From assembly GCA_947259975.1 (NCBI GenBank), contig CAMYOD010000074.1, positions 62,001 through 126,000 of the forward strand: a stretch of 64,000 nt of DNA, written 5' to 3'. Under the pieces are notes generated by a model. That model worked only from the letters and a program-made list of their open reading frames with translations, was not told the DNA's origin and searched no databases. Made by a program: the position numbers and the translations under genes. The stretch's first letter is position 1. Every line of letters begins with the position of its first letter. Below, one piece after another: positions 1-8,343 of the stretch. This DNA is from an uncultured Gammaproteobacteria bacterium. GTDB lineage: Bacteria; Pseudomonadota; Gammaproteobacteria; HyVt-429.

Positions 1-488
1 GGATCGAACACCATGTTGCCTTCGTCGTCCACCGCGACCTTGCTGAACAGGTTCAGATTGGCTGCCATATCGCGCTCGTTCATGCCATATTTCGCCAGCT
101 CGACCAGAAAGCTATCGTGTCCGTTGAGGTACCAGTCATTGCGGTGATCCTGGTAGTTTCGCTCACCCCATTTTTCATTCACAGACGCCGCGGTGGTATT
201 GCCACCCACCGTGTCATGCCAGCCAACCGTGTCCTCGATAATCGAGCAGAATATACGTCCCATATCCGAGTACAGGCAGTTGCCGCGGGTCAACTTGAAG
301 GTGTGCTGGCATTTTAGGGTGTCGGGCGCGTTATAGCGTTCGAGGTAATTCGATGGGTTATAGAACAGCATGCCAACATTGGCGCCGCCGTCCTTGTCGA
401 TCAGGTGCAGGGTCGTACCCTTGCGCATCAGCATCGACCAATGCTTGCCGCCCGGGATCTCATCCTGGTAGAAAACTTCGTTCGTCAC
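1..488 (-). CDS. Carboxyguanidine deiminase subunit (urea carboxylase-associated, DUF1989), 5' part
   Basis: Runs off the left edge; only the first 162 codons are visible. The start is GTG at 488, chosen because GAGGAG lies just upstream and no ATG fits. The protein opens VTNEVFYQDEIPGGKHWSML and contains GNCLYSDMGRIFCSI and GWHDTVGG, typical of the DUF1989 proteins annotated as urea carboxylase-associated protein 1 or 2. In published guanidine metabolism, a pair of these proteins forms a deiminase that converts carboxyguanidine to allophanate. It is the fourth gene of an operon with the transporter at 501-3238, 12 bp after the ATPase stop. Guanidine carboxylase and allophanate hydrolase genes are expected beyond the edge (inference). 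Which of the two subunits this is was not settled. Confidence 0.85.
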   Translation of the reverse strand, partial: MTNEVFYQDEIPGGKHWSMLMRKGTTLHLIDKDGGANVGMLFYNPSNYLERYNAPDTLKCQHTFKLTRGNCLYSDMGRIFCSIIEDTVGWHDTVGGNTTAASVNEKWGERNYQDHRNDWYLNGHDSFLVELAKYGMNERDMAANLNLFSKVAVDDEGNMVFD

Positions 489-2176: not shown

Positions 2177-3238
2177 TTATAGCTTGCCGTCCGCCGCCAT
2201 CTTCATGTAGGCGGGATTGAAACGGAACTTGATGTTGGCCTCGTCACCAAACACCCCGGCCGGCGTTTCGACGCCGATGAACCCGGCATCGGGTGCGCCC
2301 TCGCCCAGCAGGCCATGGGCGAAGGAGAACCCGGCCACCTTGGCCATGGTGTCTTTCAATGCCTCGCTGTTGGTGAACTCGACAGCGTCCGCAGCTTTAA
2401 AGAACATCTTGGTGGATGCCAGCTGCGCGTCATAGCCTTTCAGGTCGGTCCCGGATGCCTTACCCATGGCGGTGCGCGCCTCGACTGCTTTCTCGTCGGT
2501 ACCGGACATGGTCGCCATGATTTCGTACCAGGCGCCGGCCAGTGCCTTGCCCAGTTTCGGGTTCTCCGCGAGGGTCTTGGTGTTGACCACCATCAGGTCG
2601 ATGATTTCACCGGGGATCTGGCTGGAATCGAATACCTTGTAGCTATTGGGCATCGCCAGGATCTCACTCACCAGCGGATTCCAGGTGGTCACCGCGGTGA
2701 CATCGTCGGTGCCGTAGACCGCGACCATGTCGGCATCCGAAGTGTTCACTACACTGATGTCTTTTTCCGACATGCCGACGGTCTCAAGACCTCGCGCCAG
2801 CAGGTAATGGGATACGCTCAGTTCAACAAGGTTGACTTTCTGTCCCTTGATGTCCTTGAGTGCTTTCTTGCCTTTGAGAATGACCGCGTCGTTTCCGTTC
2901 GAGAAGTCACCGACGATCAGCGCGGTGCTGTCGACGCCGCTGGCCGCGGGGATGGTCAGTGCATCCATGTTGGTCATCACGCAACCATCAAACGCGCCGG
3001 CGGTGTATTGGTTAATGGATTCAACGTAGTCGTTGATCTGCACCACCTCGATATCGATGCCGTATTTATCAGCCCATTTCTTGACGATGCCTGAGTTATT
3101 CCCGTAGTCCCAGGGCATCCAGCCGACATAGATACTCCAGGCGATCCGAAATTTATCCTTCGCCAGGACCGGCTGCGCCACGGTCATGGACAATGCTAAC
3201 AACAGCAGTAGAAGCAGTTTTGTAGTCAGGTGTTTCAT
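2177..3238 (-). CDS. ABC transporter periplasmic substrate-binding protein (guanidine candidate)
   Basis: A 353-residue secreted protein with a Sec signal peptide ending near LSMTVAQPVLA (residues 17-27). It matches the binding proteins found beside urea carboxylase genes, which share the NrtA/TauA/SsuA periplasmic fold. The start ATG at 3238 follows GGAGGAAAC. It is the first gene of the operon, 57 bp after the guanidine-I riboswitch. Published work links operons with this riboswitch to guanidine uptake and breakdown, so guanidine is the best substrate guess. Urea or a related compound remains possible. Confidence 0.88.
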   Translation of the reverse strand: MKHLTTKLLLLLLLALSMTVAQPVLAKDKFRIAWSIYVGWMPWDYGNNSGIVKKWADKYGIDIEVVQINDYVESINQYTAGAFDGCVMTNMDALTIPAASGVDSTALIVGDFSNGNDAVILKGKKALKDIKGQKVNLVELSVSHYLLARGLETVGMSEKDISVVNTSDADMVAVYGTDDVTAVTTWNPLVSEILAMPNSYKVFDSSQIPGEIIDLMVVNTKTLAENPKLGKALAGAWYEIMATMSGTDEKAVEARTAMGKASGTDLKGYDAQLASTKMFFKAADAVEFTNSEALKDTMAKVAGFSFAHGLLGEGAPDAGFIGVETPAGVFGDEANIKFRFNPAYMKMAADGKL

Positions 3239-3294
3239 GTTTCCTCCGGCTAGTTACGCGTTGAGGTTGAGGAGGTTCAATGACATGCATTGCA

Positions 3295-3412
3295 TACCTC
3301 CCGGGCTTTTATCCCTCCGTGTAACCTGCGAGGAATCATGCAAATGCATGTTAGGCAGGTCGACTGCTCTCGGACCAGTCATCCAGTAATGGATCGGAAC
3401 CCTAGCGGTCTA
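3295..3412 (-). promoter_or_regulatory. Guanidine-I (ykkC type 1) riboswitch
   Basis: On the minus strand three conserved blocks occur in the order and spacing of this riboswitch: CTAGGGTTCCG (3405-3395), ACTGGTCCGAGAG (3379-3367) and GGGATAAAAGCCCGGGAG (3315-3298). Between the last two is a stem, AACCTGCGAGG-like against CCTGCCTAA-like sequence. The class binds guanidinium and turns genes on. Just after it, a hairpin at 3271-3301 pairs GGAGGT with ACCTCC and shares bases with the last conserved block, so it could be the switching element. No U-tract follows, so control at translation or by another route is possible. Confidence 0.93.
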
Positions 3413-3470
3413 TTTTTGGCTTGTCGCGGTATAGCGACATGTCACTGAACACTCAGCTGACAGGCAGGTT

Positions 3471-3486
3471 TGCAATTTCGATGCCA
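3471..3486 (-). promoter_or_regulatory. Sigma-54 promoter for the guanidine operon
   Basis: Minus strand TGGCATCGAAATTGCA matches the -24/-12 pattern TGGCAC-N5-TTGCA, with GG and GC exactly ten bases apart and a single change in the -24 block. Transcription would start near 3460, about 50 bases before the riboswitch. The NtrC-like site at 3570-3586 lies about 118 bases upstream, a usual enhancer distance. This is a pattern match, untested, but the coincidence of position and spacing is strong. Confidence 0.72.
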
Positions 3487-3569
3487 GCAACAAACTTGCG
3501 CAGAAACAAGCCATTAGATGTCTGACTGTGCCCGGTGCGAGGCAAGTATTTCCAAAATGGCGCACGCCA

Positions 3570-3586
3570 CGCACTATTTTGATGCA
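3570..3586. promoter_or_regulatory. NtrC-like enhancer site
   Basis: Plus strand CGCACTATTTTGATGCA agrees with TGCACCA-N3-TGGTGCA (read on the minus strand) at 11 of 14 specified positions. It lies upstream of the sigma-54 promoter at 3471-3486. NtrC would activate the operon when nitrogen is scarce, fitting a nitrogen-scavenging role. Confidence 0.55.
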
Positions 3587-3738
3587 AAACGGGTTGCTGG
3601 CGGTCTGGGTCGGGCGTTACGAAATCTTCTGGTGAGATGCGAGCCTGTAACCATCGGCCGCGGGCTTGCCACACTGCAAGTGGCACGGCTTTGGTGATGA
3701 CCGCATTGCGCCTCAACACATCAGGATCTGTTTAGATA

Positions 3739-4410
3739 TTAAGAACGGAACAGACGTGAATATTGCACTTCATGTAGCGCGCTGGCCATGGCCAGCGCCG
3801 GTGCAATCGCGCCGATCGCCGAATCTTCCAGCTCCAGACCACGCTCCATCATCTCCGGCAACTCCACAGTCACATCGCTCAATATCCTTTGTCCCGCGGT
3901 CTGACCCAGGGGCACCAGTTTGATTGCGGCGGCCACCTGGTTTTCTGCCCACGCCCATACATAACCGCTCACCGCATCCGCCAACGGAATTTGCCAATGC
4001 ACCGCGGCCATGGCGAACAGCGTGGCGAAACTGCGCGCCGGATGATCGACCCATGTACTGGCGCCGGGGACATCCAGTTCATCGAGCAACCTGGCGAGGG
4101 CCGCACCCAGATGGTGGTCTTCGGCCTGCAGCTCGGCAGTCTCGCGGCAGGCGCGCAACAATTCGCTCCAGGCGAGTACCGCGGCTTTATCATCTGCAGC
4201 GAACCCACGATAGATACGCGCAAATACCGGTACGTCCAGGTGACAGAGGGAGTGGTCCATCAGACCCAGAATCCAGTCGCGCGCGTCGGCCTCGTCACTG
4301 ACCCAACCCCGCTCCACCGCGGTTTCGAGTCCCTGGGAATAGGCATAGGCCCCCACCGGCAGGGCCGGGCTCACCAATTGCATCAGGCGCAGTGTGGTCT
4401 GGTTAGTCAT
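3739..4410 (-). CDS. ureF: Urease accessory protein UreF
   Basis: A 223-residue protein of the usual UreF length, with the family opening LRLMQLVSPALPVGAYAYSQ and GLETAVERGWV. UreF forms a complex with UreD and UreG that delivers nickel to the urease active site and gates UreG GTP hydrolysis. Its start overlaps the end of ureE by 8 bp, so the two are translationally coupled. The usual next gene, ureG, is absent; the following genes belong to the guanidine operon and have their own promoter. Confidence 0.95.
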   Translation of the reverse strand: MTNQTTLRLMQLVSPALPVGAYAYSQGLETAVERGWVSDEADARDWILGLMDHSLCHLDVPVFARIYRGFAADDKAAVLAWSELLRACRETAELQAEDHHLGAALARLLDELDVPGASTWVDHPARSFATLFAMAAVHWQIPLADAVSGYVWAWAENQVAAAIKLVPLGQTAGQRILSDVTVELPEMMERGLELEDSAIGAIAPALAMASALHEVQYSRLFRS

Positions 4411-4852
4411 GGTGACCGTGATGATGATGGCCGCTGTGATAGGCCCCGGCCTCGGGTTCGAAGGTTGCCTGTTCGGTGACGACTTTAAGCCCCAGCTTGA
4501 TCACCATGTCATCCAGCACATGATCATGCGCGTAACGTACCCAGCCGGTACCAACCTGCAGCGGTACATGCCGGTTGCCCAGATGATAACTGGCGCGTGC
4601 CAATTGCACGGGGTTGTCACTGTAGGCGGTGGATACGGTCTCGGCGGCGGCGTGCACCTCGACCACCATGCCGTTCTCGGCCCGTAATCGGTCACCATGT
4701 CTCAGCACACTGCCCCGGGGCAGCATCAATCCCACCGCCATGCCGTCCTCCAGGCGGGTGGCGAGTCGACTCTTCTGCCGCTCCTCGAAACGCAGGGTCA
4801 GGACTGCGCCGGGCGTCGGGTCGCTATTCGTAATTTCAGTGATTTTTAGCAT
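4403..4852 (-). CDS. ureE: Urease nickel metallochaperone UreE
   Basis: A 149-residue nickel-binding chaperone that hands Ni(II) to the UreDFG complex. The C-terminus is histidine-rich (HSGHHHHGHHD), as in Klebsiella-type UreE, and would bind extra nickel. The conserved histidine of the metal site lies in the YHLGNRHVPLQV segment near residue 95. It overlaps ureF by 8 bp. A 137-bp inverted-repeat element starts 7 bp upstream of its start codon, so its own leader sequence is mostly that element. Confidence 0.95.
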   Translation of the reverse strand: MLKITEITNSDPTPGAVLTLRFEERQKSRLATRLEDGMAVGLMLPRGSVLRHGDRLRAENGMVVEVHAAAETVSTAYSDNPVQLARASYHLGNRHVPLQVGTGWVRYAHDHVLDDMVIKLGLKVVTEQATFEPEAGAYHSGHHHHGHHD

Positions 4853-4859
4853 TGGAAAA

Positions 4860-4996
4860 GGGGTCGGAGTGATTTATTTTTAGGCAGTTGAGTCGGGATG
4901 CAACTTCCGCAGACAAACGTTTTCGATTGCGCTGAATGAATTTGCGTTCGAGTTTTTGGTGGTAACAACTGCCTTAAAATAAATCACTCCGACCCC
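4860..4996. mobile_element. MITE-like element with 30-bp terminal inverted repeats
   Basis: The two ends (4860-4889 and 4967-4996) are inverted copies matching at 29 of 30 positions. Each begins GGGGTCGGAGTGATTTATTT at the outer edge. The interior (about 77 bp) has no coding capacity. It sits between ureC and ureE inside the urease operon, where the gap would otherwise be very short. A lone copy of the same end is at 18965-18990 and a worn one at 14384-14405. No clear target-site duplication is visible. The shared GGGGTCRGAG edge links it to the REP-like sequences beside the transposase relic near 18.9 kb (inference). Confidence 0.8.
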
Positions 4997-4998
4997 TT

Positions 4999-6698
<1,700 letters not shown>

Positions 6699-6702
<4 letters not shown>

Positions 6703-7016
6703 GCGCCTTCCTCCAGCTTACCCATCACCTTGGCGTTGAAACCGTACACTGTGCGCGCCCCGGCGTAGGCGACGAGTTCCACTTCCCGTTGCTGCCCCGG
6801 CTCGAAGCGCACCGCAGTGCCGGCCGGGATGTTCAGCCGGAAGCCCCGCGCCGCCTCGCGATCGAATGCCAACGCGGAATTGGTTTCATAAAAATGATAA
6901 TGCGAGCCGACCTGGATCGGCCGGTCGCCGGTGTTGGCGACGGTCACGGTGATGGTTTCGCGCCCGGTGTTGAGTTCGAGTTCACCGGCGGCGGTCACTA
7001 TTTCTCCGGGGATCAT
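6699..7016 (-). CDS. ureB: Urease subunit beta
   Basis: A 105-residue structural subunit of normal length, beginning [20 protein letters not shown] and containing the conserved [17 protein letters not shown] segment. With UreA and UreC it forms the (ABC)3 urease trimer. It overlaps ureC by an ATGA and lies 10 bp after ureA, in the standard A-B-C order. Confidence 0.97.
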
Positions 7017-7026
7017 GTCGGTCTCC

Positions 7027-7329
7027 TCAGGTAATCGGGTTATGCACCGTGACCAGCTTGGTGCCGTCGGGAAAGGTGGCCTCGACCTGGACCTCGGGAA
7101 TCATTTCCGGGATACCGTCCATGACGTCGTCGCGGGCAAGCAGGGTGGTACCGTAGGCCATCAGGTCGGCCACGGTGCGGCCCTCGCGCGCACCCTCCAT
7201 GATGGCCGCGCTGATGAAGGCCATCGCCTCCGGGTAATTCAGCCTCAGACCTTTGGCTTTGCGCCGTTCCGCCAGCAGGGCGGCGGTGAAAATCAGCAGT
7301 TTATCTTTCTCCCGGGGGGATAATTCCAT
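7027..7329 (-). CDS. ureA: Urease subunit gamma
   Basis: A 100-residue urease gamma subunit. A longer frame runs upstream to 7416, but [20 protein letters not shown] at 7329 is the family's invariant start. The conserved [20 protein letters not shown] and LVTVHNPI segments are present. It is separated from ureD by 168 bp, which contains a few CAAGAT-type bases like the heptad arrays elsewhere; a separate promoter could lie there, though none was clear. Confidence 0.96.
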
Positions 7330-7497
7330 ACCGACATCCTCGATAAAAGGGGCAGACGTATTTTGTGATCCCGATATCGTCTCGTTAAATAAATAATCAA
7401 AGAGAAAACCAGCCACAACTCCTGGTCAATGCATATTTCAGCATCGTCCTTCCAGAATTGTCGCTTTGCACTTTCATCTTGTATCTTTTCTCCGCTT

Positions 7498-8343
7498 TTA
7501 TGTAAACCAGATACGGGGCGCGCAGGCCGGTCGTTGCACAATCATGGGGCGCAGGATTTCCCACGCACGGCTCAGTCGATGTCGCGCATGTGCGGCGTGT
7601 AGACCCAGGTAGCGACAGACGACAACGTCATCGAGTTGGGTTACCGAGCAATACTCCTGTGCATCCTGGGTCTGCACGGCGTCTCGCACCTGGGACGCGA
7701 GGCCGGGGTCCCGGCCAGTGGCGATCAGGCTGGCGGTGACCGGGAAACCGCGCAGGCCCCAGGGCGACGTGAGCAGCGGGCCACCGCCGTCGATCGATAT
7801 ACGTTCCAGCAACAGCGGCTTGTTCTCGCGCCAGATCTCGAATCGCTGCCGAACATTGCCGTGATCGAATCCCTCACCGGCGGCACTGCGGCCGAGACAC
7901 AGAATTTCCCAGCCAAGAAATTCGGCGTCGCCGGTCAGATCCACTCGGGTCAGCAGGTCCGCTTTGGCACCCGCGAACACTATGGTTTCCTGGGGTAGCC
8001 ATTCCAGACGGGCGTTGGGTTGCACGCACAGGTTCACAACCTGGTGCGCAGTCGCGCCGCTGCTGCGATAAAACTTGCCGGCCGCCGGGGTGGTCAATAA
8101 AGCGTGCGCACCGGTCTGCGCGCGCGCCGAAATATGCAAGGTATCGCCGCCGACCACACCACCGGGCGGATGCAACACATACGCATGGCATACGCCTGGA
8201 CCTTCCGGGTAGAACGGCCGTTGTATGCGCAGCGGGCCCAGATGACGCCGGTCGGCCAGCACTGTGCGCCCGTCCCGGTGATGGAACCCTAATTCGAGTT
8301 CACCGCGCCAGCAGTCGGTGTCGGTTTCGGATAATTCAGGCAT
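7498..8343 (-). CDS. ureD: Urease accessory protein UreD
   Basis: A 281-residue urease assembly scaffold, of normal length, that binds apo-urease and recruits UreF and UreG. It contains the family segments GPLRIQRPFYPEG, HPPGGVVGGDTL, TTPAAGKFYRS and EWLPQETIVFAGA. It is the first gene of the urease cluster, and 120 bp without a gene separate it from the membrane protein upstream. No nickel or nitrogen regulatory site was recognised in its leader. Confidence 0.95.
   Translation of the reverse strand: MPELSETDTDCWRGELELGFHHRDGRTVLADRRHLGPLRIQRPFYPEGPGVCHAYVLHPPGGVVGGDTLHISARAQTGAHALLTTPAAGKFYRSSGATAHQVVNLCVQPNARLEWLPQETIVFAGAKADLLTRVDLTGDAEFLGWEILCLGRSAAGEGFDHGNVRQRFEIWRENKPLLLERISIDGGGPLLTSPWGLRGFPVTASLIATGRDPGLASQVRDAVQTQDAQEYCSVTQLDDVVVCRYLGLHAAHARHRLSRAWEILRPMIVQRPACAPRIWFT

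Follow-up and report, generated by a model that had tools for sequence, protein, structure and literature searches.

A candidate NtrC/sigma-54 promoter stacked on a guanidine-I riboswitch at the head of a guanidine-assimilation operon

The guanidine-assimilation operon described here is very probably controlled by two stacked inputs, the first acting through NtrC and sigma-54 and the second through a guanidine-I riboswitch. Comparison of relatives lends firm support to the predicted promoter and to its conservation, and NtrC is well supported as the likely activator. The layout is best read as an AND gate that would require both nitrogen shortage and guanidine. What can be read from the DNA itself are the sites, with how they are conserved, placed and paired, together with the regulator genes and the riboswitches, and from these we infer NtrC binding, the transcription start, the AND logic and the action of the leader hairpin.

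The guanidine operon and its riboswitches

Read along the minus strand, the window (the whole 64-kb stretch of DNA that was analysed) contains ureDABCEF, a 280-nt gap, the guanidine-I riboswitch and the guanidine operon. The first gene of the operon encodes the periplasmic binding protein of a guanidine or 'urea carboxylase-related' ABC importer (2177-3238, minus; TIGR03427, 559.6 bits, over the cut-off); no solved structure resembling this protein was found by sequence. The permease (1289-2107, minus) was assigned from TauC/SsuC-type permease matches below curated cut-offs together with its operon position, and the ATPase (501-1286, minus) from ABC ATPase matches that were also below curated cut-offs. 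The start of UAAP1, a carboxyguanidine deiminase subunit, lies at the edge of the window (1-488, minus; TIGR03425, 326 bits), beyond which the operon continues with UAAP2, a guanidine-II riboswitch, a 1201-aa carboxylase and allophanate hydrolase. This is the gene order expected of a guanidine carboxylase operon, from the importer through UAAP1/UAAP2 and the carboxylase to allophanate hydrolase. At the active site of the carboxylase, GAIDFTGD aligns to GAINFTGD of the Kluyveromyces lactis enzyme, placing Asp at the position of the Asn that we take to be Asn1330 of that urea enzyme. A review assigns Asp to guanidine carboxylases and Asn to urea carboxylases (PMC12186494). Because of its gene set and the Asp, not Asn, in the carboxylase active site, we consider this a guanidine-assimilation operon.

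The operon splits the urease genes, lying between ureDABCEF (window 3739-8343) and a ureG-porin-urt group (L003:6417-7097), in which ureG, a TorF-type porin and urtA follow 3' of the allophanate hydrolase gene. The last gene of the ureDABCEF run, a UreF-like ORF named by position and sequence (3739-4410, minus), stops about 280 nt short of the predicted transcription start. Between ureE and ureC is a 34-nt inverted repeat whose arms are 97% complementary and 75 nt apart (window 4857-4999). Its core, GGGGTCGGAGTGATTTAT, is present in 21 copies across the genome at no more than one mismatch, several of them as facing pairs; we regard the repeat as a dispersed REP/MITE-like element. An Rfam match to 5_ureB_sRNA (RF02514, 117 bits; window 6267-6553, plus) is antisense to ureC and may merely reflect conservation of the coding sequence.

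The guanidine-I aptamer spans 3296-3416 (minus) and matches RF00442 over its full length (1-107) at 89.2 bits against a gathering threshold of 63; we take it to be a real riboswitch heading the importer/carboxylase operon. Its last bases, GGGAGGU, pair with ACCUCCU in a predicted expression-platform hairpin (3270-3302, minus) that would compete with the aptamer. The 83-nt stretch containing this hairpin has a predicted folding energy of -19.5 kcal/mol, and the hairpin is likewise readable in close relatives. An intrinsic terminator is the usual expression platform of guanidine-I riboswitches and is not defining for the aptamer. Because the leader holds no U-tract 3' of the hairpin, the structure does not qualify as a standard intrinsic terminator, and it may halt RNA polymerase, assist Rho or affect translation; a terminator-like match was found in 15 of 77 relatives.

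The guanidine-II riboswitch between UAAP2 and the carboxylase (RF01068, 32.3 bits; G000:C74:61036-61079, L003:13036-13079) falls outside the window, 922-965 bases ahead of its position 1. A tandem hairpin motif resembling class II precedes the carboxylase in 60 of 66 relatives. Class II guanidine riboswitches served as a control, and most of them, whether inside the operon or standalone, have no sigma-54 site. In three standalone cases (L151, L167 and L169), one of them before a carboxylase, a sigma-54-like site lies 26-43 nt upstream, which would be stacking of a promoter on another riboswitch class.

The sigma-54 promoter in the window and in relatives

The earlier note had described a near-perfect sigma-54 promoter on the minus strand, just 5' of the riboswitch. 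The position is as claimed, with the predicted -24/-12 promoter CTGGCATCGAAATTGCA at 3471-3487 (minus) and the aptamer at 3296-3416 on the same strand, and the site itself is real and the best in the window; 'near-perfect' overstates the match, which is good and has TGGCAT instead of TGGCAC. Its 16-mer, TGGCATCGAAATTGCA (3471-3486, minus), carries GG at -24 and GC at -12 and conforms to TGGCAY-N5-TTGCW. Scoring with sigma-54 and NtrC matrices, as the same note had proposed, gave 15.7 bits for the promoter at 3471, a higher sigma-54 score than at any other position of the window on either strand, and 15.1 bits for the upstream dyad; both matrices were written from published consensus sequences and are approximations, not fitted models, the former with GG and GC set 12 apart. 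The sigma-54 spacing rule, applied from the C of the GC element at -12, predicts that transcription starts at about 3460 (minus).

How far such matches could arise by chance was gauged with shuffled sequences. When the dinucleotides of the 300-nt leader were shuffled, 0.2% of the shuffles equalled the sigma-54 score and 0.15% the NtrC-type dyad score, single-site rates of about 0.2% each that leave some room for coincidence, as does the presence of an equally good sigma-54 match on some strand in 5 of 10 shuffled 64-kb windows. Taken by itself, without the comparative data, the sigma-54 match would thus be weak. Across the 3.2-Mb genome, the exact pattern TGGCAY-N5-TTGCW occurs at only 19 sites, versus 1 for the reversed control pattern.

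A scan with the binding protein yielded 80 loci, and 77 upstream regions were scored for sigma-54 sites at a threshold of at least 12. A site preceded the aptamer in 60 of the 77, compared with 1.8 expected from shuffles (maximum 5 in 100 runs), 2 on the antisense strand and 1.0 in other stretches of the same loci. In a second, independent sample, class- plus phylum-wide, with loci picked by the riboswitch alone, a site lay within 170 nt of the aptamer at 51 of 57 loci, representing 33 of 37 Proteobacterial families, and was not found at the other 6 sampled loci; in both sets the genomes are related and the counts are therefore not independent. The logo of 123 distinct sites was canonical (GG 100%, GC 95-100%) at a median distance of 71 nt before the aptamer core. 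Given this conservation of position and the joint presence of both elements, we rejected chance as the source of the sigma-54 and NtrC matches and regard it as exceedingly improbable.

Promoter and riboswitch occur together in Pantoea vagans, Serratia proteamaculans, Rhizobium etli, Agrobacterium tumefaciens and Caballeronia, the last (Burkholderiaceae) also with paired weak NtrC-like sites. Enterovibrio relatives keep the promoter before a riboswitch with a longer loop, and in diverged binding-protein relatives that have no riboswitch (L200 and L202, on Citrobacter and Vibrio plasmids) the promoter is absent as well. At one locus, L045, the sigma-54 site TTGGCACCTATCTTGCT is kept 255 nt before the binding-protein match, with no recognisable guanidine-I riboswitch.

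The operon transcript could instead come mainly from urease read-through or from a sigma-70 promoter that escaped recognition, leaving the riboswitch alone to decide expression. The arrangement in the window would allow this: ureDABCEF precedes the operon on the same strand, and no intrinsic terminator was found between them. Yet urease genes are absent from about 5 kb around the operon in all 80 relatives, most of which keep the sigma-54 site. Urease read-through was rejected on the basis of these operons without nearby urease genes. No sigma-70-like site was found in 3180-3800. For the leader, a sigma-70 promoter was rejected, as was a standard terminator, neither having been found. We consider this explanation quite improbable, and the conserved sigma-54 promoter remains the preferred origin of the transcript.

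NtrC as the candidate activator

A predicted NtrC-type enhancer dyad, TGCATCAAAATAGTGCG, occupies 3570-3586 (minus). Counted from the predicted start at about 3460, its centre falls at -118, in agreement with the NtrC-like site that had been placed about 118 bp upstream. As expected for a member of the NtrC regulon, this is a GCAC-N7-GTGC-type dyad 5' of a sigma-54 promoter, with one half-site imperfect. On the opposite strand it reads CGCACTATTTTGATGCA; of the 17 bases, all but one are shared with CGCACTATTTTCATGCA, the second glnA site in this genome. A possible second half-site, TGCGCCATTTTGGAAAT (3548-3564, minus; centre -96), is tentative, with a score of only 1.7. Two NtrC sites about 30 bp apart are common at strong NtrC enhancers and are not required; no such pair was found in the window, where the weak second site lies 22 bp from the first.

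The genome encodes RpoN (PF04552, 236 bits) and a true NtrC (TIGR01818, 718.9 bits against a curated cut-off of 558.6). Its glnA gene has a sigma-54 site and two predicted NtrC-type sites, TGCGCTAAAATCGTGCA and CGCACTATTTTCATGCA, 30 bp apart, and a promoter and dyad of the same kind precede both glnK-amtB and the porin-urt genes. In front of the TorF-type porin and urtA these are the sigma-54 site CTGGTATGGGCCTTGCA and the NtrC-type dyad TGCACGACTTTGGTGCC (L003 near 6177 and 6258, minus). A TorF-like ORF is also found 5' of glnK-amtB (L208:639-1376), and these porins may belong to the nitrogen regulon.

The genome also encodes at least 8 further sigma-54 activator candidates, and the promoter could be real but driven by an enhancer-binding protein other than NtrC, in which case the first input would not be nitrogen status. 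The 260 nt before the promoter in 71 relatives were searched for palindromes without bias toward any regulator (256 half-sites by 13 gaps). The top match was GCAC-N7-GTGC, exactly the NtrC consensus, with 11 exact occurrences against 0.7 expected; at one mismatch it was present in 40 of 71 relatives against 10 expected, and the runner-up in that scan, CACC-N5-GGTG, is the interior of the NtrC site. NtrC-type sites with a score of at least 13 were found at 24 of 71 loci, compared with 0.34 expected. In relatives the sites are concentrated around -95 and -125, and a second site lies 29-32 bp away in 46 of 82 regions with a site, other offsets giving 2 to 11. Spacing of about 30 bp, or three helical turns, is the known layout of NtrC enhancers such as that of glnA, and the same pairing is seen at glnA in the genome of the window.

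A minority of relatives has no recognisable NtrC dyad: 20 of 71 have no NtrC-type site with a score of at least 9 and retain the promoter, so a different protein may act there. For the operon as a whole we consider a non-NtrC activator unlikely, given the outcome of the palindrome search, the shared 30-bp pairing and the NtrC dependence of an operon matched by annotation in Burkholderia cenocepacia (PMC5491218), and we continue to favor NtrC. The earlier note had also stated that its proposal would be refuted if close relatives retaining the riboswitch had lost both motifs. This is not the case: the sigma-54 site is present in 60 of 77 relatives and in 33 of 37 families, and NtrC dyads are strongly enriched, constant in position and spaced in pairs of about 30 bp.

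Proposed control and known systems

Under nitrogen limitation, phosphorylated NtrC would occupy the upstream dyad or dyads and, by looping, reach the sigma-54 RNA polymerase bound at the -24/-12 promoter, whereupon transcription would begin about 45 nt 5' of the aptamer. The nascent leader would then fold into the guanidine-I aptamer. When guanidine is absent, the hairpin that captures the 3' end of the aptamer would block expression, and when guanidine is present this hairpin would be prevented and the operon expressed. With the two inputs stacked, the operon would thus be on only when nitrogen shortage and guanidine coincide, and the internal guanidine-II riboswitch would add a third checkpoint at the carboxylase.

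Since most sampled Proteobacteria with these genes have the two-step arrangement, cells seem to be wired to use the pathway only under nitrogen shortage with guanidine at hand. We think it likely that, across Proteobacteria, assimilation of guanidine belongs to the core of the nitrogen-starvation regulon under NtrC/sigma-54, that its operons are generally gated in three tiers (an NtrC enhancer, guanidine-I at the head and guanidine-II before the carboxylase) and that published NtrC data on 'urea carboxylase' really concern guanidine. If the pathway is wired to nitrogen starvation in most sampled Proteobacterial families, this would argue that guanidine is an emergency nitrogen source and not merely detoxified, which bears on its natural role. 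Ammonium would then be predicted to shut the pathway despite guanidine, NtrC-dependent 'urea carboxylase' genes of earlier transcriptomes would be reassigned, and the leader would offer a case from nature in which a DNA enhancer and an RNA switch act one after the other.

The first input resembles that of glnA in Escherichia coli, where the -24/-12 promoter glnAp2 is preceded by NtrC dyads about 100-140 bp upstream and about 30 bp apart; unlike the window, glnAp2 has no riboswitch after the promoter. Published data on an operon of similar annotation come from B. cenocepacia H111, in which RNA-seq under nitrogen limitation showed strongly decreased expression of I35_7283-7286 in an ntrC mutant (PMC5491218). 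These genes are annotated as a urea carboxylase-related ABC binding protein, an aminomethyltransferase-type protein and urea carboxylase, and were read by the authors in terms of urea utilisation; the likeness to the window operon rests on this shared type of annotation, and the report differs in mentioning neither a riboswitch nor guanidine. A genome survey of sigma-54 lists COG3665 genes, 59% of them annotated as urea carboxylase, among those under sigma-54 control in alpha-, beta- and gammaproteobacteria (PMC12316311), and neither study links guanidine or a riboswitch to NtrC/sigma-54 control. The guanidine carboxylase operon of Vreelandella boliviensis has the same gene set, with a class I riboswitch at its head and a class II riboswitch before the carboxylase; the available part of that report ascribes induction to the two riboswitches and describes no sigma-54/NtrC promoter (PMC12508155).

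The literature searched, in which coverage was incomplete and an earlier report is possible, held no paper joining NtrC/sigma-54 to a guanidine riboswitch. The earlier statement that such a gate had not been described for this operon therefore holds for the stacked promoter and riboswitch and does not extend to the NtrC dependence of a similarly annotated operon (PMC5491218) or to sigma-54 control (PMC12316311), both already published. A comparable pairing on one transcript is found in cyanobacterial gifB, which combines the global nitrogen regulator NtcA with a riboswitch; there, NtcA represses and is unrelated to NtrC/sigma-54, the ligand is glutamine and both inputs report nitrogen status (PMC6316151). 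Relative to these systems, neither part of the proposed arrangement alone would be new, and its novelty would lie in its generality and in the joining of two known kinds of control.
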